Part shown: piece by piece, positions 38,433-46,022 of the stretch
How the letters are laid out: every line of letters starts with the position of its first letter
Position numbering within the stretch: position 1 is the stretch's first letter
Origin: Thermopolyspora flexuosa
GTDB taxonomy: Bacteria; Actinomycetota; Actinomycetes; Streptosporangiales; Streptosporangiaceae
Direction of reading: 5' to 3'
Assembly (NCBI RefSeq): GCF_006716785.1
Contig: NZ_VFPQ01000001.1
Span: 2,790,001-2,854,000 of the forward strand
DNA length: 64,000 bases
Translations under genes and position numbers: made by a program
Notes under the pieces: model-generated
Told to the model about the DNA's origin: nothing
Databases searched by the model: none
Seen by the model: the letters and a program-made list of their open reading frames with translations, nothing else

Positions 38433-39617
38433 TCAGGCCGCCCCGGCGGCGGCGAGGGCGCGCTCGAAGTCGGCGACGAGGTCGTCGGGGTTCTCCAAAC
38501 CCACCGCGACGCGGATCAGCGCGGGCGGCACCCCGGCCTCGGTGAGCTCCTCGTCGCTGAGCTCGAGGGCCCACATGGCGGCGGGCCGTACCGCGAGCGT
38601 GCGGTAGCCGCCGAGGCTGGGCGAGCGGCGCACGAGCCGGAGGGCGGACAGCAGCCGCTCGGCCGCCTCGCGGCCGCCGTGCGGCTCGAAGCTCAGCAGC
38701 CCGCCGAAGCCGCGCATCTGGCGGACGGCGAGCCCGTGCTGCGGGTGCTCGGGCAGGCCGGGGTGGTTGACCGCGGCCACACCGGGGTGGGCCTGCAGGA
38801 AGCGGGCGAGCGCGAGGGCGCCCGCGTTCTGGCGCTCCACCCGCATGACCAGGGTGCGCAGGCCGCGTAGCGCGAGCCAGGCGTCGTACGGCGAGACCAC
38901 CGCGCCGACGAGGATGTGGGTCTGCCAGATGCGCTCGATCAGCTCGCGGGAGCCCGCGACGATCCCGGCGAGCACGTCGGAGTGGCCGGACAGCGACTTG
39001 GTGACGCTGTGCATGACCAGGTCCACGCCGCACTCGAGCGGGCGCTGGTTGACCGGGGTGGCGACGGTGTTGTCGGCCATGGTGAGGATGCCGCGGTCGC
39101 GGGCGAGCTCGGCCACGGCCCGCAGGTCGGTCACCCGCAGCAGCGGGTTGCTCGGGGTCTCGAGCATGACCAGGCGGGTGTTCGGCCGCAGCGCGCGGGC
39201 GAAGGCCGGCGTGTCGGCCTGGTCGACGAAGGTCACCTCGATCCCGAGCCGGGGGGCGACGTCCCTGAGGAAGCCGAGCGTTCCGCCGTACATGCTGTGC
39301 TGGGCGACCACGTGGTCCCCGGCGGAGAGCAGGGTGAGCAGCGTGGTGGAGACCGCGCCCATGCCGGAGGCGGTGGCGAGCGCGGCCTCGGCGCCCTCCG
39401 CCTCGGCGATGAGCCGCTCCAGCCTCGCCTGGGTCGGGTTGCCGTACCGGCGGTAGAAGCGCTCGTGCCGGGGTTCGGCGCTCAGCTCGGCGAACTCCTC
39501 CGCAGTGGCCGCCGAGAACGGCACCGACGCGTGGATCGGGGGCGCGATCCCGGGCTCGGCGTCGTCGTCGGCGTCGGCGTGCAGCAGCAGGGTTTCCAGC
39601 GTGAAGGAGTCGTCCAT
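38433..39617 (-). CDS. Trans-sulfuration-family PLP enzyme (cystathionine/methionine gamma-lyase type)
   Basis: A 394-residue Cys/Met-metabolism PLP enzyme. Active-site parts are RYGNPTQARLE, the phosphate-binding SGMGAVSTT, MLETPSNPLLRVTDL and the PLP lysine in VMHSVTKSLSGHSDV. The length and layout suit cystathionine gamma-synthase/lyase, O-acylhomoserine sulfhydrylase or methionine gamma-lyase, and the sequence alone does not separate them. Its promoter faces the aldolase gene across a 196-bp gap with two ATTGTTGACA words. That is an odd partner for sulfur metabolism and suggests shared regulation. Confidence 0.9.
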   Translation of the reverse strand: MDDSFTLETLLLHADADDDAEPGIAPPIHASVPFSAATAEEFAELSAEPRHERFYRRYGNPTQARLERLIAEAEGAEAALATASGMGAVSTTLLTLLSAGDHVVAQHSMYGGTLGFLRDVAPRLGIEVTFVDQADTPAFARALRPNTRLVMLETPSNPLLRVTDLRAVAELARDRGILTMADNTVATPVNQRPLECGVDLVMHSVTKSLSGHSDVLAGIVAGSRELIERIWQTHILVGAVVSPYDAWLALRGLRTLVMRVERQNAGALALARFLQAHPGVAAVNHPGLPEHPQHGLAVRQMRGFGGLLSFEPHGGREAAERLLSALRLVRRSPSLGGYRTLAVRPAAMWALELSDEELTEAGVPPALIRVAVGLENPDDLVADFERALAAAGAA

Positions 39618-39656
39618 GAAGGAAGCCTGTCACACATCGCCCCGCCGATCGACATG

Positions 39657-39686
39657 ATTGTTGACAGTGCCAAAATTGTTGACAAT
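39657..39686. promoter_or_regulatory. Paired ATTGTTGACA operator words
   Basis: ATTGTTGACAGT (39,657) and ATTGTTGACAAT (39,675) repeat with an 18-bp period; the second is a palindrome ATTGT-TG-ACAAT. The form resembles operators of FadR/VanR-type GntR repressors (TTGT..ACAA). They sit between the PLP-enzyme and aldolase genes. A related ATTGGCGACAAT lies at 42,587 before the DUF1932-type dehydrogenase gene. Confidence 0.55.
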
Positions 39687-39813
39687 ATCGGCGACAGGCA
39701 GCAAGGTGGGAGCCGGACGCGGGCGGGGACACCGGCCCGCGTCCGCCCGCCCGCAGACCGCATGAGAGGGTACGGGCGTCCGGTTTGGTACCGCAGGTGA
39801 CGGAGGTGGTGGC

Positions 39814-40521
39814 ATGAGAGGCGTCGTGGTGACCAACCCCGAGCGGGCACCGCTCGACCAGGTCGACGCCCTTGCGAAGTACGGCGTGGCGACCGTGCAC
39901 GAGGCGCTCGGCCGCGAGGGATACCTCGGGCCGCACCTGCGCCCGGTGAACCGCGGCCACCGGATCGCGGGGACCGCGGTGACCGTGCTGTGCTGGCCCG
40001 GTGACAACCTGATGATCCATGTGGCCGTCGAGCAGTGCCGGCCCGGGGACATCCTGGTGGTGACCACCACCTCCCCGTCCACCGACGGCATGTTCGGGGA
40101 GCTGTTCGCCACCGCGCTGCAGCACCGCGGGGTGCGCGGCGCGGTGATCAACGCCGGGTCGCGGGACTCGGCCGAGCTGGGCGAGATGGGCTTCCCGGTG
40201 TGGTCGGCCGCGATCAGCGCCCAGGGCACGGTGAAGGCCACCGCCGGGTCGGTGAACGTGCCGATCGTGATCGGCGGCCAGGTGATCCGGCCGGGCGACG
40301 TGATCCTCGCCGACGACGACGGCGTGATGGTCGTGCCGCGCCAGGACCTGCCGCGCGCCCTGCAGGCCGCGCAGGCCCGCACCGACAAGGAGGAGGCCAC
40401 CCGCCAGGCGTTCCGCCAGGGCGAGCTGGGCCTCGACCGGTACGGCATGCGCCCGCTGCTGGAGAAGCTGGGCGTCGAGTACATCACCGCCGAGGAATAC
40501 GCCCGCCGTACGGGCGCCTGA
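39814..40521 (+). CDS. 4-carboxy-4-hydroxy-2-oxoadipate / HMG aldolase (LigK/GalC, RraA fold)
   Basis: The 235-residue protein belongs to the RraA-like class II pyruvate aldolases that split 4-carboxy-4-hydroxy-2-oxoadipate into pyruvate and oxaloacetate in the 4,5-cleavage pathways of gallate and protocatechuate. The core reads RPGDILVVTTTS, GVRGAVINAGSRDSAE (with catalytic Arg and Asp) and GDVILADDDGVMVVP. Start is ATG with GGAGGTG. It is followed after 18 bp by the tautomerase gene, the expected pathway neighbour. RraA RNase E inhibitors are shorter and lack the long C-terminal helix seen here. Confidence 0.88.
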   Translation: MRGVVVTNPERAPLDQVDALAKYGVATVHEALGREGYLGPHLRPVNRGHRIAGTAVTVLCWPGDNLMIHVAVEQCRPGDILVVTTTSPSTDGMFGELFATALQHRGVRGAVINAGSRDSAELGEMGFPVWSAAISAQGTVKATAGSVNVPIVIGGQVIRPGDVILADDDGVMVVPRQDLPRALQAAQARTDKEEATRQAFRQGELGLDRYGMRPLLEKLGVEYITAEEYARRTGA

Positions 40522-40539
40522 GCCGCGAAGGGAGCTGCG

Positions 40540-41646
40540 ATGGCCGCGACCCCCCACCCGGTGATCGAGAAGGCGATCCGCGAGGGCGTGCGCTGCATGC
40601 TCATGCGCGGCGGCACCTCCAAGGGCGCCTACTTCCTCGCCGAGGACCTGCCCGAGGACCCCGCGCTCCGCGACGAGCTGCTGCTGCGCATCATGGGCAC
40701 GCCCGACCCGCGGCAGATCGACGGCATCGGCGGCGCGACCACGCTCACCAGCAAGGTCGCGATCGTCTCGCGCTCGGCCACGCCGGACGCCGACGTCGAC
40801 TACCTGTTCCTGCAGCTCGGCGTGGAGGAGCCGACCGTCTCCGACAAGCAGAACTGCGGGAACATCCTCGCGGGCATCGGCCCGTTCGCGGTCGAGCGGG
40901 GCCTGGTGCCGGCCGGTCAGGAGACGACCCGGGTGCGGATCCGGATGGTGAACTCGGGCAGCCTCGCCACGGCCACCTTCCCCACCCCGGGCGGGGTCGT
41001 GGAGTACCGCGGCGACACGGCGATCTCCGGCGTGCCGGGCACGGCCGCCGCGGTCGACCTGGAGTTCGCCGACACCGAGGGCTCGGTCACCGGGAGCCTG
41101 CTGCCCACCGGCAACGTCCGCGACGTGATCGACGGCATCGAGGTCACCTGCATCGACAACGGCATGCCGGTGGTGGTGGCCCGGGCCTCCGACTTCGGCC
41201 TCACCGGCTACGAGTCGCCCGAGGAGCTCGCCGCGGACGAGGCGCTGCGCGAGCGCATCCAGTCGCTGCGGCTGCAGGCGGGCAAGCTGATGGGGCTCGG
41301 CGACGTCAGCGCCGCCTCGGTGCCGAAGACCACGCTCGTCGCGCCGCCGCGGGCGGGCGGCATCATCAGCACCCGGACGTTCATCCCGCTCAAGCCGCAC
41401 ACCGCGATCGGCGTGCTCGGCGCGGTCACCGTGGCCACCGCGCTGCTGATCGAGGACGCGGTCGGCCACGAGCTCGCGGTGCTCCCCGAGCCGGGCACCC
41501 CGCTCAAGGTCGAGCACCCCACCGGCACGTTCGAGGTCGGCGTCGAACTCGACTCGAGCGCCACGCCGCCGCGGGTGCGCCGGTCCAGCCTGGTGCGCAC
41601 GGCCCGCAAGCTGTTCGACGGGATCGTGTACGCGCGCGGCTGGTAG
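40540..41646 (+). CDS. 4-oxalomesaconate tautomerase (PrpF/GalD/LigU family)
   Basis: A 368-residue diaminopimelate-epimerase-fold isomerase. Diagnostic segments are CMLMRGGTSKGAYFLAEDLP, QIDGIGGATTLTSKVAIV, SDKQNCGNILAGIGPFA (with an active-site Cys) and GIISTRTFIPLKPHTAIGVLGA. In gallate and protocatechuate degradation it interconverts 4-oxalomesaconate isomers ahead of hydration and the aldolase step, which matches the gene just upstream. PrpF (methylaconitate isomerase) is the alternative. Start ATG has AAGGGAG. The hydratase and dioxygenase of the pathway are not in the window. Confidence 0.88.
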   Translation: MAATPHPVIEKAIREGVRCMLMRGGTSKGAYFLAEDLPEDPALRDELLLRIMGTPDPRQIDGIGGATTLTSKVAIVSRSATPDADVDYLFLQLGVEEPTVSDKQNCGNILAGIGPFAVERGLVPAGQETTRVRIRMVNSGSLATATFPTPGGVVEYRGDTAISGVPGTAAAVDLEFADTEGSVTGSLLPTGNVRDVIDGIEVTCIDNGMPVVVARASDFGLTGYESPEELAADEALRERIQSLRLQAGKLMGLGDVSAASVPKTTLVAPPRAGGIISTRTFIPLKPHTAIGVLGAVTVATALLIEDAVGHELAVLPEPGTPLKVEHPTGTFEVGVELDSSATPPRVRRSSLVRTARKLFDGIVYARGW

Positions 41647-41719
41647 GCCGCTCGGACGTGCGGTGCCGCCGGGCGGCGCCGGCCGGTGGACCGGCCCGGC
41701 CCGCCCGGCGGCACCGTTG

Positions 41720-42523
41720 TCATGCCTTGTCCTGCTCCGCCTGCGCGGCGAGCCGGACCAGCAGGTCGCGGCTCGCGGTCGCGACCAGCGGCGGAACCCC
41801 CAGCTCCTCGAGCATCGCCGCGGCGGCCTCCATCTCGTGCGTCCGCCGTACGGCGTGGCGGTGGCTGCCCTCGACGAGCCGGTCGACGGTGGCCGGACCG
41901 GCCGCGGTGAGCTCGTCGATGATGTTCTGGCGCAGCCACTCCTCGAGGCCCGCGGCGCGGGCCGCCTCGAGGGCCTCCACCACGGCGGCGGCCATGCCCT
42001 TGAAGAACACGCTGCGCAGCAGCTTGCGCCGGGCGGCGCTGCCCGGCTCGCCCTCGAGCACCCTGACGTTCCCGCCGAGCGGGTTGAGCAGGCGGGCCAC
42101 GTCCTCGGCGCCCTCGCCGCTGACGAGCATCGGCACCCGCAGGCCCTTGCCCGGCACCGGGGCCATGATCGCCACATCGGCGAAGCGCACCCCGCGCTCG
42201 CGTGCGGCGGCGGCGAGGTCGGCCTTCAGACCGGGCGAGGCGGTGTTGAGGTCGGCCCACACCGCGCCCTCGCCGACCCCCTCGGCCCCGGCGAGCAGCG
42301 CGTCCATGGCGTCGTGCGCGCTGTTGACGCTGAGCACCAGGTCGGCGCCGCGGGCCGCGTCGGCCTCCCCCGTGCAGGCGACGAGCGGCGGCTCGGCCGG
42401 CACCTTGGGGTCGTAGCCGCGCACGGTCGCCCCGGCGGCGGCGAGGTCGCGGGAGATCGCGCCGCCCGCCTCGCCGAGGCCGAGCACGGCGATGACGGGG
42501 CCCCCACCGCTGGCTGCTGACAT
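41720..42523 (-). CDS. 6-phosphogluconate-dehydrogenase-like NAD-binding protein with DUF1932 domain
   Basis: The 267 residues begin with a Rossmann fold (VIAVLGLGEAGGAISRDLAAAG) of the beta-hydroxyacid dehydrogenase type, then DLVLSVNSAHD, the APVPGKGLRVPML segment and RKLLRSVFFKGMAAAVVEAL. The C-terminal helical part corresponds to DUF1932. Such proteins occur in aromatic and phthalate-type degradation clusters. The ATG used has GGGAGGA upstream; a 16-codon extension is possible. It is convergent with the tautomerase gene and has its own palindromic operator, related to that before the aldolase, so it is probably a pathway member. Confidence 0.84.
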   Translation of the reverse strand: MSAASGGGPVIAVLGLGEAGGAISRDLAAAGATVRGYDPKVPAEPPLVACTGEADAARGADLVLSVNSAHDAMDALLAGAEGVGEGAVWADLNTASPGLKADLAAAARERGVRFADVAIMAPVPGKGLRVPMLVSGEGAEDVARLLNPLGGNVRVLEGEPGSAARRKLLRSVFFKGMAAAVVEALEAARAAGLEEWLRQNIIDELTAAGPATVDRLVEGSHRHAVRRTHEMEAAAAMLEELGVPPLVATASRDLLVRLAAQAEQDKA

Positions 42524-42578
42524 TTCGGCATTCCTCCCAGATACAGCTTCATACGAGTCGTACAGGCTCACCGTATCA

Positions 42579-42606
42579 TTAACAAAATTGGCGACAATTT
42601 TTGTAA
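42579..42606. promoter_or_regulatory. AT-rich operator-like inverted repeat before the DUF1932-type gene
   Basis: TTAACAAAATTG and CAATTTTTGTAA form arms matching at 10 of 12 positions around GCGA. The inner ATTGGCGACAAT matches ATTGTTGACAAT at 39,675 in 10 of 12 bases. This suggests that one regulator controls both promoters. The regulator is not in this window's cluster. Confidence 0.5.
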
Positions 42607-42623
42607 CCTGGTGATTCTGTAGT

Positions 42624-42674
42624 GAACGTTGCGTTCCCTACCTTTGCGGCGTAGCGTTAGAGAACGAAGCGTTC
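42624..42674. promoter_or_regulatory. Two GAACG-N3-CGTTC palindromes around a possible promoter
   Basis: GAACGTTGCGTTC (42,624-42,636) and GAACGAAGCGTTC (42,662-42,674) have identical 5-bp arms, 38 bp apart. Between them TTGCGT and TAGCGT at 17-bp spacing could be -35 and -10 boxes reading rightward. The downstream operon carries a TetR gene, the obvious candidate binder. This is followed by about 200 bp of untranslated DNA before the kinase-like gene. Confidence 0.55.
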
Positions 42675-42874: not shown

Positions 42875-45325
42875 GTGACGCCACTCGTGGTGCCGCTCAC
42901 CGCGGTCGGGCGCGACGACCTCGCGCGCGCCGGCGGCAAGGGCGCCAATCTCGGTGAACTGGTCGCGGCGGGCCTGCCGGTCCCCGACGGCTTCGTGGTG
43001 ACCACCGCCGCCTACGCGGAGCTGATCGACCGGTGCGGGCTCGCCGCGCGCATCCCCCGCCTGCTCGACGCCGGGGACGGCGCGGCCATCCGCGCGGAGT
43101 TCGCGGCCGCGGAGATCCCCGCCGCGACGGCCGAGGCGATCACGGCCGCGTACCGCGGGCTGGGCGGCGGCCCGGTCGCCGTGCGCTCCAGCGCCACCGC
43201 CGAGGACCTGCCCGGGGCCGCGTTCGCCGGGCAGCAGGACACCTACCTCAACGTCGAGGGCGAGGACGCGCTGCTCGACGCGGTGCGCCGCTGCTGGGGC
43301 TCGCTGTGGACCGACCGCGCCATCGCCTACCGCCGCCGCCTCGGCATCGGCCCCGAGCAGGTGCGGATCGCGGTCGTCGTGCAGCGCATGGTGGACGCCG
43401 AGGCCGCCGGGGTGATGTTCACCGCCGACCCGGTGAGCGGAGACCGGGACCGGCTCGTGGTCGACGCCTCCCCCGGGCTCGGCGAGGCCGTGGTCTCCGG
43501 CCGGGTCACCCCCGACCACTACGAGCTCGACCGCCGCGGCAGGCTGCTCGGCTGGACGCCGGGCCGGGCCGAGGTGGTGGTCCGCGGGGCCGCGGGCGGC
43601 GGGGTCGTCGAGGAGGCCGGGAAGGCCACCGGGGAACGGCTGCTCGGCGACGCCGCGCTCGCCGAGCTCGCCCGGCTCGGCGTCGCCGTGCAGGACCGGT
43701 ACGGCAGGCCGATGGACATCGAGTGGGCGCTCGCGGGCGGCCGGGTCTGGCTGGTGCAGGCCCGCCCGATGACCGCGCTGCCGCCGCCCCCGGTACGGCT
43801 CGGCTTCATCCAGCGGCGGCTCGGCGAGATGCTGCTCGACTACCTGCCGCGCCGGCCGTACCCGATGGACATGAGCACCTGGGTGCCGTACGGCCCGGTC
43901 GGGATGATGGTCGAGGTCGCCCGCAGCGTCGGGGTGCGCGGCCTGTTCGAGGGCGCGATCGAGGAGCAGGACGGGGTGGTGTACCGCATCCTGCCCCACC
44001 GCCCGCACCCCACGCCGAAGGCGCTCACCGCGCCGTTCCGGCTGCTGTACCGGGCCCACCGGTACGACCCGGCGCGGTGGACCGAGGACCCCCGGTTCGC
44101 CGGGTTCCTCCGCGAGGTGGAACGGCTGTGCGGGCTCGACCCGGCCGCGATGCCCTGGCCAGAGCTGATCCGCCTGCCGCGGCGGGCGCTGGCCGCGGTG
44201 CGGCCGATCACCGAGCTGCGCCGCGACTACCTGCCCGGCTGCGCCCTCAGCGTGCTCCGGATGGTGGTGGCGCTGCTGCCGCTCGGCGCGGTCCGTATGT
44301 GGGGTGACCTGCTGGCCGGTGGGCGGACCCGCACCGAGGACGGCAACCGCGCCCTGGAGGCGCTCGCGGCCAGGGTGCGCGAGGACCCGCGGCTGAAGGA
44401 GGCGGTGGACGCGCTCGACCTCGATCGGGTGAAGGGGTTCACCGGCTTCTGGGCCGAGTTCACCGCGTTCCTCGCCGAGTACGGCCACCGGGAGACCGGC
44501 AGCCCGGTGCTCGCCTCCTCACCCACCTGGGAGGAGGCGCCGGAGGTGGTGCTCGGCCTGCTCAAGGTGCTCGCGGCGGCGCCGCCGTCCCCGCCCGGAG
44601 ACCGCGTCGGCGAGGCCGTACGGCGGCTGCGCGCCCACCCGCGGCTGCGCTCCCCGCGGCGGTGGGCCCGGATGGAGCGCCGGATCGCCGCGGCGCGCGT
44701 CGCGTGGGCGTTCCGCGAGGACACCCACTTCTACTTCACGATGCCGTTGCCGGTGCTGCGCCGCGCGCTGCTCGAGATCGGCGCCCGGCTGCGCGACGCC
44801 GGCGTGCTGGAGACCGCCGAGGACGTGTTCCACCTGCGGCTGGAGGAGGTGGAGGCGGCGGGCGACCCGGCCGTCATGCCGCAGGAGCGGCGGGAGGAGC
44901 TGGCCGCCACGGCGCGGGCGCGGGCGGCCCGGCGGCAGGAGCTGGCTGGCGTGCGGCTCATCGACCCCCGCGCGGTCTATCCGGACCGCGGTGAGGCGGG
45001 GGATGCGCTGGTGCGCGGCACGCCCGGGGGCGGCGGAACGGCGACCGGCCCGGTGCGGATCATCCGCGACCCGTCGGAGTTCGGCCGCCTCGCCGAGGGC
45101 GAGGTGCTCGTCTGCCCGAACACGAACCCCGCCTGGACTCCGCTGTTCCAGCGCGCGGCGGCGGTCGTGGTCGACGCGGGCGGCGTCGGCTCGCACGCCG
45201 CGATCGTCGCCCGCGAGTACGGCCTGCCCGCCGTACTGGGCACGGTCACCGGCACCGCCGTACTGGCCGACGGACAGGTCGTCACCGTGGACGGCGACGC
45301 GGGCGTGGTCAGGAGTGCGTCATGA
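42875..45325 (+). CDS. PEP-synthase/rifampin-phosphotransferase-like dikinase
   Basis: An 816-residue protein with the three-part layout of PEP synthase and rifampin phosphotransferase (RPH): an N-terminal ATP-grasp domain (GGKGANLGELVAAGLPVPDG, AVRSSATAEDLPGAAFAGQQ, MFTADPVSGDRDRLVVDAS), a large divergent middle domain, and a C-terminal swivelling domain whose phospho-histidine is His774 in GGVGSHAAIVAREYGLPAV. RPH passes the ATP beta-phosphate through this His to rifamycins. The middle domain decides the acceptor and is not PEP-like here. Start is GTG with AAGGAG. The TetR gene follows 52 bp later. Rifamycin inactivation is possible, but another acceptor is as likely. Confidence 0.85.
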   Translation: MTPLVVPLTAVGRDDLARAGGKGANLGELVAAGLPVPDGFVVTTAAYAELIDRCGLAARIPRLLDAGDGAAIRAEFAAAEIPAATAEAITAAYRGLGGGPVAVRSSATAEDLPGAAFAGQQDTYLNVEGEDALLDAVRRCWGSLWTDRAIAYRRRLGIGPEQVRIAVVVQRMVDAEAAGVMFTADPVSGDRDRLVVDASPGLGEAVVSGRVTPDHYELDRRGRLLGWTPGRAEVVVRGAAGGGVVEEAGKATGERLLGDAALAELARLGVAVQDRYGRPMDIEWALAGGRVWLVQARPMTALPPPPVRLGFIQRRLGEMLLDYLPRRPYPMDMSTWVPYGPVGMMVEVARSVGVRGLFEGAIEEQDGVVYRILPHRPHPTPKALTAPFRLLYRAHRYDPARWTEDPRFAGFLREVERLCGLDPAAMPWPELIRLPRRALAAVRPITELRRDYLPGCALSVLRMVVALLPLGAVRMWGDLLAGGRTRTEDGNRALEALAARVREDPRLKEAVDALDLDRVKGFTGFWAEFTAFLAEYGHRETGSPVLASSPTWEEAPEVVLGLLKVLAAAPPSPPGDRVGEAVRRLRAHPRLRSPRRWARMERRIAAARVAWAFREDTHFYFTMPLPVLRRALLEIGARLRDAGVLETAEDVFHLRLEEVEAAGDPAVMPQERREELAATARARAARRQELAGVRLIDPRAVYPDRGEAGDALVRGTPGGGGTATGPVRIIRDPSEFGRLAEGEVLVCPNTNPAWTPLFQRAAAVVVDAGGVGSHAAIVAREYGLPAVLGTVTGTAVLADGQVVTVDGDAGVVRSAS

Positions 45326-45377: not shown

Positions 45378-46022
45378 GTGACCGCCGGGCAGGAGACCGA
45401 CCACCGCAGGCGGCCGCGCCGCCGCGGCCCCGCCCTCGACGAGGCCATCTTCCAGGCCGTGCTCGACGAGCTCGCCGAGGTGGGCTACGCGCGGCTGACC
45501 ATGGAGGGCGTCGCCCAGCGGGCGCGGGCGGGCAAGGCGTCCCTGTACCGCCGCTGGCCCACCCGGATCGAGCTCGTCATGGACGCGGTGTACAGCCGGC
45601 TGCCCGACCCGTCGGCCCCGCCGGACACGGGCAGCCTGCGCGGCGACCTGCTCGCGCTGCTGCGCGCCAACGCCGAGGCGCTCGCCGGGCCGGCCGGGGA
45701 GGCGATGCGCGGCCTGCTCAGCGAGGCGCTCGCCGACTCCGAGGTGATCGCCCGGGTCCGGCGCAACTCGCAGGGGGCGACCCTGCGCACCATGCGGGAG
45801 ATCCTCCGCCGTGCCGTCGGCCGCGGCGAGATCGACCCCGCCGCGGTCACCGACCGCCGCATGGAGGCCGGGCACGCCCTGCTGCGCTACCACTTCCTCT
45901 TCAACGGCACCCCGATCCCCGACCAGGTGATCACCCAGATCGTGGACGAGGTCCTGCTCCCCCTGTTCCGGTCCCCCACGTGCCCGCCGTCCACCGGCCG
46001 GGCCCCGGCCGCCGACGGCTAG
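45378..46022 (+). CDS. TetR-family transcriptional regulator
   Basis: A 214-residue regulator. The helix-turn-helix is LTMEGVAQRARAGKASLYRRWPTRIELV near residues 40-67, with the TetR recognition helix. The C-terminal domain resembles the TetR_C_11-type ligand pocket (GEAMRGLLSEALADSEV; later HALLRYHFLFNGTPI). Start is GTG with GGAGGTG. It follows the RPH/PEP-synthase-like gene in the same direction and probably represses that operon through the paired GAACG...CGTTC sites. Confidence 0.9.
   Translation: MTAGQETDHRRRPRRRGPALDEAIFQAVLDELAEVGYARLTMEGVAQRARAGKASLYRRWPTRIELVMDAVYSRLPDPSAPPDTGSLRGDLLALLRANAEALAGPAGEAMRGLLSEALADSEVIARVRRNSQGATLRTMREILRRAVGRGEIDPAAVTDRRMEAGHALLRYHFLFNGTPIPDQVITQIVDEVLLPLFRSPTCPPSTGRAPAADG

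Follow-up and report, generated by a model that had tools for sequence, protein, structure and literature searches.

The regulation of protocatechuate 4,5-cleavage, a route for lignin-derived acids, has been described as scarcely studied (PMC8431788). In Pseudomonas sp. NGC7, the galBCD genes are reported to be under the LysR activator GalR, with 4-oxalomesaconate as a strong inducer, and the GntR-type repressor VanR2 to act on the upstream vanA1B1-mga operon (PMC12314914). The operators of the FadR subfamily (GntR/FCD) have in turn been described as palindromes with TKGT/ACMA boxes and 2-3 nt between GT and AC (PMC4494728). Our literature search, whose coverage left most subscription papers outside, gave among the matches listed none whose title or opening abstract lines dealt with GntR control of protocatechuate 4,5-cleavage or of galBCD in actinobacteria, and nothing relevant on DUF1932. 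Here we describe, in a 64,000-nt stretch of the genome of Thermopolyspora flexuosa (the whole of which we call the window), a palindromic 12-bp motif in the promoter gaps of galC-galD and of a dehydrogenase gene of the DUF1932 family. We consider, with a probability of roughly 80%, that these sites would be operators of a single GntR/FCD repressor controlling the 4,5-cleavage pathway (protocatechuate/gallate-type), whose gene (gntR) lies elsewhere in the chromosome.

The motif was examined in 80 actinobacterial loci (L178-L257) fetched by galD alone as the best 80, none of them closer than 78% identity, so that the own genus is absent; at least four overlap with the set of relatives discussed below (by length, L178, L209, L210 and L218 are the contigs of L033, L039, L038 and L042). 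In a de novo comparison over all arms of the form N5-NN-rcN5 (arms of 5 bp, gap of 2 bp), the most over-represented inverted repeat was ATTGTNNACAAT, found in 67 of the 80 loci versus 0.1 expected under a first-order Markov model, the next-ranked repeat being found in 58 versus 10.75, and the other 19 permutations of the arm occurred in 0 or 1 loci each. With one mismatch allowed, the site is present somewhere in 76 of the loci, and in 74 it falls within 300 bp upstream of gntR, galB, galC, galD, ligJ or the DUF1932 gene. Moreover, a gntR homologue is encoded in 68 of the loci and every one of them has such a site, which in 67 lies no further than 300 bp ahead of a pathway gene, whereas the 12 loci without gntR divide into 8 with a site and 4 without. 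The exact arms precede the estimated start of gntR, galB, galC, galD or ligJ by 24-216 bp (median 42) in 67 of 74 sites, the starts being approximate since genes in the relatives were called from a GC-bias script and tblastn matches with no trained gene finder; gntR itself is the next gene for 29 of these 74 sites. Sites with exact arms ahead of a pathway gene are found in loci of Streptomyces, Actinomadura, Amycolatopsis, Streptacidiphilus, Actinoallomurus, Sphaerisporangium, Pseudonocardia, Arthrobacter and Streptomonospora, and one-mismatch sites in loci of Nonomuraea, Nocardia and Naasia. The motif also contains a TTGACA hexamer that points at the gene in 63 of the 67 sites, with a TAnnnT element 18 bp further on in 38 of those 63 and at 12 bp in 25 (0-3 at any other spacing from 8 to 25), a count in which many promoters come from related species. 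The putative operator therefore covers the -35 box of these promoters.

The features of the window are given below, the sites with the score of a matrix trained on 23 sites from which the own genus was left out.

39657..39668, + strand: operator copy 1, ATTGTTGACAGT, tandem partner of the copy at 39675; score 14.2
39675..39686, + strand: operator copy 2, ATTGTTGACAAT; score 36.9
42587..42598, - strand: operator of the DUF1932 gene, ATTGGCGACAAT, which is ATTGTCGCCAAT when read towards the gene; score 31.9
42575..42586, + strand: ATCATTAACAAA, a candidate weak half-site that flanks the 42587 operator at a distance of 12 bp; score 13.2
38433..39617, - strand: pyridoxal-phosphate (PLP) enzyme of Cys/Met metabolism (PF01053), adjoining the divergent operator region
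39814..40521, + strand: galC/ligK, 4-carboxy-4-hydroxy-2-oxoadipate aldolase (NF006731 335.8 bits, cut-off 179; TIGR02798 307.4 bits, cut-off 304.5)
40540..41646, + strand: galD/ligU, 4-oxalomesaconate tautomerase (NF033377 522.4 bits, cut-off 440)
41720..42523, - strand: DUF1932 dehydrogenase, beta-hydroxyacid/6-phosphogluconate dehydrogenase-like (PF03446, NAD_binding_2, and PF09130)

From these family matches, the final reactions of protocatechuate 4,5-cleavage are predicted to be those of galC and galD. A preliminary description of the window had pointed to the 12-mers at 39675 and 42587, identical at 10 of 12 positions, as one operator motif placed in AT-rich promoter gaps. Both stand where it put them, in gaps with a guanine-cytosine (GC) content of 0.508 (39640-39700) and 0.433 (42524-42620) versus 0.735 for the window, and the tandem copy at 39657, which it had missed, adds a third. 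Copies 1 and 2 are 18 bp apart, and both their order and their spacing are kept in a second genome of the genus, G001 (L151:618 and L151:636). Copy 2 is the top match of the matrix in the 214,921 bases of own sequence that were scanned, stretches picked for holding candidates, so that ranks there are not genome-wide. The pattern ATTGNNGACAAT has two matches in the window versus a mean of 0.01 over 100 shuffles, none of which held two. The same description had named many random genome hits as one result that would refute its proposal, and these were not seen: WTTGTYGACAAT with up to one mismatch occurs at 10 places (13 rows) of the 5.77-Mb genome versus 2 rows for the reversed control, three of the 10 being in these two window gaps; the exact ATTGTTGACAAT occurs once, at 39675, and with up to two mismatches gives 42 rows versus 14 for the control. 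Shuffles, reversed controls and the over-representation in the 80 loci together rule out chance matches as the origin of the sites. The hexamer TTGACA at 39679-39684, inside copy 2, is a possible -35 box of galC, in whose gap a simple promoter scan returned two promoter-like pairs (9/12 matches each; 0.0 in shuffles); the same scan returned no promoter-like pair in the DUF1932 gap. The 42587 site, which separates the DUF1932 gene from a divergently oriented gene resembling phosphoenolpyruvate (PEP) synthase, is 64 bp from the likely ATG of the former (42523), for which the list of open reading frames (ORFs) offers a longer GTG start at 42571, and the half-site ATCATTAACAAA may perhaps be a mere reflection of the CAA flank of the main site.

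The candidate regulator was located in the same genome (G000) at C1:2184521-2185198, 0.65 Mb from the window. It combines an N-terminal GntR winged helix (PF00392, 56.4 bits, cut-off 27) with a C-terminal FCD domain (PF07729, 93.6 bits, cut-off 24.3), the architecture of the FadR type, and is the clear best own match to a gntR linked to gal genes (expect value, E, 2.1e-69 versus 5.7e-19 for the next). A scan for GntR domains gave 35 matches in the genome and none inside the window, in agreement with the earlier suggestion of a GntR-type regulator encoded elsewhere, and relatives of the candidate gene occur near galD and the motif across actinobacteria. Among 149 genomes, the own one included, a close galD was found in 21 and a close relative of gntR in 24: 18 genomes have both, 3 only galD, 6 only gntR and 122 neither (Fisher p 2e-15, only indicative as the genomes are related). 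In 11 of the 18 genomes with both, gntR lies within ~3 kb of galD, and a site is found in or beside the gal locus in 15 of the 18 versus none of the three without gntR (p 0.015), counting for G001 a site on another contig (L151) and for G004 one ~7 kb from galD. In a tree, the own gntR groups (support 0.934) with its counterparts from Nocardia vaccinii and N. jiangxiensis, which are 71-73% identical to it and are each encoded in a galC-galD locus that has a one-mismatch site; identity to the searched relatives outside the genus is at most 61%. This closeness to Nocardia, together with the lack of a GntR-domain match beside the DUF1932 gene of the window, hints at a replacement or transfer of the regulator. 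Its own promoter has two tandem degenerate copies of the motif, AATGTCAACAGA and TTTGTCAACAGA, 18 bp apart as in the galC promoter and inside a block conserved in G001, the DNA further upstream having diverged, so that the gene may also control itself.

The remaining genes of the pathway are far from the window. ligJ, ligI, ligA, ligB and a dehydrogenase of the ligC/PmdC type lie on one strand at ~5.084-5.089 Mb of G000:C1 (L068), 2.26 Mb away, with ligA and ligB above NCBIfam cut-offs and matches for ligJ (6dxq, E 4.9e-177), ligC as PmdC (9azo, E 2.3e-158) and ligI (4d8l, E 8.5e-104). As judged by homology, the protocatechuate 4,5-cleavage set (ligA, ligB, ligC, ligI, ligJ, ligK, ligU) is thus complete. 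In relatives, the gallate operon joins a GalB of the PIG-L family to a ring-cleavage dioxygenase, and no operon of this kind was found in the own genome, where the best match to PIG-L has an E of 2.4e-5 and that to the catechol-2,3-dioxygenase-like protein of the relatives is 24% identical, neither being a good one. The own galC-galD would consequently have to work with the distant lig genes, and a one-mismatch site, TTAGTTGACAAT, stands ~145 bp upstream of the own ligJ and is identical in G001, where the region is ~88% identical. Seven of the 80 galD loci include ligJ, six of them with its start; ATTGTTAACAAT or ATTGTCAACAAT lies 65-68 bp before it in four, all from Amycolatopsis (L191, L208, L214, L220), and no site was found before ligJ in L194 and L210. 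The lig operon would be a predicted member through a weaker site, as would gntR.

A second LigB is encoded at G000:C1:1880774 (L083, L115), together with LigA-like and folD-like ORFs (labelled by eye) and a GCV_T-domain gene, a possible tetrahydrofolate O-demethylase, which suggests vanillate or syringate use; the motif is absent from L083 at up to two mismatches.

The support for membership differs between the DUF1932 gene and the PLP gene. The preliminary description had proposed one regulon comprising galC, galD, the DUF1932 dehydrogenase and the PLP enzyme, there called of the trans-sulfuration family. The common operator of galC-galD and the DUF1932 gene stands up in silico, and conservation backs only these as targets. 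For the PLP gene, conserved membership is not supported. In this genome and in G001 (L151) it has its divergent promoter in common with galC, and tblastn gave no match to it in the other 19 gal loci of relatives (several of which are short contigs) and none in the 80 galD loci, taken with flanks of up to 6 kb. As a core pathway gene it is therefore unsupported, and its membership in the regulon is doubtful. Both directions from the 39657/39675 region may respond. The enzyme falls under the cut-off of all 25 NCBIfam families shown (56 matched).

On the side of the DUF1932 gene, whose product has PDB chain 3qsg as its closest match (E 4.4e-26), a homologue occurs in 27 of the 80 galD loci. A sample of 40 loci, made of these 27 and 13 relatives picked for a known homologue, gave the exact ATTGTCGCCAAT 44-78 bp upstream of the estimated start in 14 (8 of the 80-locus set and 6 relatives including G001), TTTGTTGACAAT in 8, further variants in 6, and no site among the patterns searched in 12. 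In 13 of the 14 loci with ATTGTCGCCAAT, the site is placed where the DUF1932 gene and gntR diverge. When seven loci selected for the presence of ATTGTCGCCAAT were aligned, four extra columns beside the 12-mer were invariant, most of the flank being different. By its conservation, the 42587 site is thus a fixed variant and no sloppy copy. In L159, L162, L165 and L166 a related cluster of DUF1932, gntR, DUF6282, PIG-L and RraA genes bears ATTGTTAACAAT; L159, L165 and L166 also have a gene that by eye resembles an ABC-transporter ATPase.

Several observations weigh against the control of these genes by one repressor. The 80-locus counts overstate independence because the loci are related, many being from Streptomyces, Actinomadura and Amycolatopsis. 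In the window, the first base of the site is 139 bp from galC versus the median of 42 in that set, the nearer operator copy is 51 bp from the PLP gene (the layout in L151 of G001 is nearly identical), and the simple promoter scan placed no -35 box on the motif's TTGACA. The own lig site scores 17.0, below three own sites without a shown pathway link (L054 32.2, L002 21.8, L052 18.8), and the copies in the own gntR promoter just 8.1 and 7.0. Among the relatives, G037 and G042 have galD and gntR and no site in the galD contig (6-10 kb examined), and G054, counted as a miss, has its site, gntR and galC on a contig other than that of galD. Moreover, the exact 12-mer is present in 50 of the 149 genomes, many of them without a gal-type gntR, and in several relatives it marks a cluster of DUF3830, hydroxyacid dehydrogenase, amidase and aminotransferase genes, which in L156 includes a different GntR. 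Because of this cluster the motif alone does not name its regulator, and the sites could be operators of a different GntR/FCD paralogue, for instance of the kind that serves such clusters. The resemblance among FadR-subfamily operators (PMC4494728) and the many GntR-domain proteins of the own genome fit that idea as well. We nonetheless regard it as unlikely, given that the gal-linked type is the one encoded in most of the galD loci, that the 2.18-Mb gene stands far ahead of any other own match to it, and that the first 110 residues of the L156 gntR reach just 41% identity in their best own match.

The presence of TTGACA raises another question, namely whether the motif is just a strong -35 box that looks palindromic by accident. 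The orientation of the hexamer and the spacing to TAnnnT are what such a box would give, yet a -35 box needs no outer arms, and these are conserved, even in variants without TTGACA (ATTGTTAACAAT, ATTGTCGCCAAT), which retain ATTG and CAAT. The near absence of permuted arms and the distribution of the site, never missing from a gntR-bearing locus and missing from a third of those without gntR, speak in the same direction, so that a plain -35 box is very unlikely and, on the arm permutations, the DUF1932 variants and the promoter geometry counts, is rejected as sole cause. The third reading is that a LysR-type activator controls the pathway and the palindrome is incidental. GalR activates galBCD in strain NGC7 (PMC12314914), a LysR-type pcaR lies beside the operon in Pseudarthrobacter strain Sphe3, where it perhaps has such a role (PMC8431788), and a LysR-like ORF, recognized by eye, lies in the gal locus L035. 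Homologues of this ORF are found in just 2 of the 80 loci versus 68 for gntR, a comparison made with one query that could miss other LysR types, the own genome not having been searched for LysR. The operator pattern of LysR regulators is T-N11-A. The arms of the motif give T-N8-A. The geometry of the site, GT-N2-AC, is that of GntR, and we regard a LysR activator as very unlikely.

We thus favour a model in which a dimer of the GntR/FCD protein would bind ATTGTTGACAAT over the -35 box of its targets and keep RNA polymerase off, repression being the predicted sign. The repressor might then be released when an acid of the pathway, in all likelihood 4-oxalomesaconate or a neighbour of it, binds the FCD domain, by analogy with the strong induction of Pseudomonas galBCD by 4-oxalomesaconate (PMC12314914). 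Its targets would be scattered, with galC-galD and the DUF1932 gene inside the window, ligJ-I-A-B-C at a distance of 2.26 Mb, and gntR itself. The regulon would in this way exceed the first proposal, which the data support in part, by the lig genes and gntR, and its motif is not exclusive.

An extension of the regulon by the motif alone was rejected, since the 12-mer occurs in other clusters too and for some own sites no connection with the pathway can be seen. No pathway genes adjoin the own sites C1:262108, C1:2264291, C1:4282945 and C2:104168 (ORFs read by eye). Another own site, ATTGTGAACAAT at G000:C2:444560 (L054:8561, score 32.2), is flanked by a UGSC-family gene on one side and on the other by an IclR gene, after which come ABC-transporter-like genes (by eye), and may belong to IclR or to the same GntR. 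ATTGCCGACAAT, at G000:C1:3478792 (L006, L052), is ~120 bp upstream of an ORF that looks, from reading its sequence, like a formate dehydrogenase/molybdopterin oxidoreductase. In relatives having gntR, the exact motif also stands upstream of ABC transporter genes of the branched-chain-amino-acid type (L153:4851 and L155:7089, the latter with Pfam support), for which uptake of aromatic acids is possible. It is found as well in L129, L131, L137, L142, L146, L150 and L156, in several genomes as two copies ~5-8 kb apart, near DUF3830, maleate-isomerase-like, D-2-hydroxyacid dehydrogenase, amidase and aminotransferase genes (by eye except DUF3830 of L156).

The gap between the DUF1932 and PEP-synthase-like genes holds a different pair of elements on the side of a PPDK-type gene (42875-45325, followed by a TetR gene at 45378-46022): two GAACG-N3-CGTTC inverted repeats at 42624-42636 and 42662-42674. 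In G001 the arms of both are kept, and the spacer only of the first; the pattern GAACGNNNCGTTCY gives 33 genome rows versus 1 for the reversed control.

A gene for a catechol-2,3-dioxygenase-like (type I extradiol) enzyme is present in 69 of the 80 galD loci, mostly right after galD, and a PIG-L gene in 62, which suggests that a ring-cleavage enzyme of a family other than LigAB feeds the same intermediates there. A wider picture, to which we give somewhat less than an even chance, would be that of a GntR/FCD regulon spread through the actinobacteria, with an operator fused to the -35 box, an unrecognised DUF1932 step under the operator variant ATTGTCGCCAAT, and galB-galC-galD fed in most of the 80 loci by a type I extradiol enzyme instead of one of the LigAB/GalA type. 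In any case, a likely regulator and its operator can now be named for a lignin-acid pathway, with a sequence tag of use in the search for more members. This accounts for how parts of a pathway that lie far apart on the chromosome could be switched on together, and points to a dehydrogenase of unknown role (DUF1932) and to a possible type I route of ring cleavage towards the same intermediates.

Compared with the systems described so far, the site agrees with the FadR-subfamily operators (PMC4494728) in its TTGT-TG-ACAA sequence with 2-nt spacing, kept in 67 of the 80 loci. It departs from that work, in whose main text neither 'aromatic' nor 'protocatechuate' was found, in overlapping the -35 box and in having 4,5-cleavage genes as targets. 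With Pseudomonas sp. NGC7 (PMC12314914) it shares the lower pathway enzymes GalB, GalC and GalD, and VanR2 is likewise a GntR-type protein of an aromatic pathway, whereas galBCD are activated there by a LysR protein and VanR2 is reported to control an upstream operon. Among actinobacteria, a likeness is seen with Pseudarthrobacter phenanthrenivorans Sphe3 (PMC8431788), where a 4,5-cleavage operon also has a pathway-linked regulator; PcaR, as described there, is of the LysR type and adjacent to its operon, whereas here a GntR/FCD protein would serve operons scattered through the genome.

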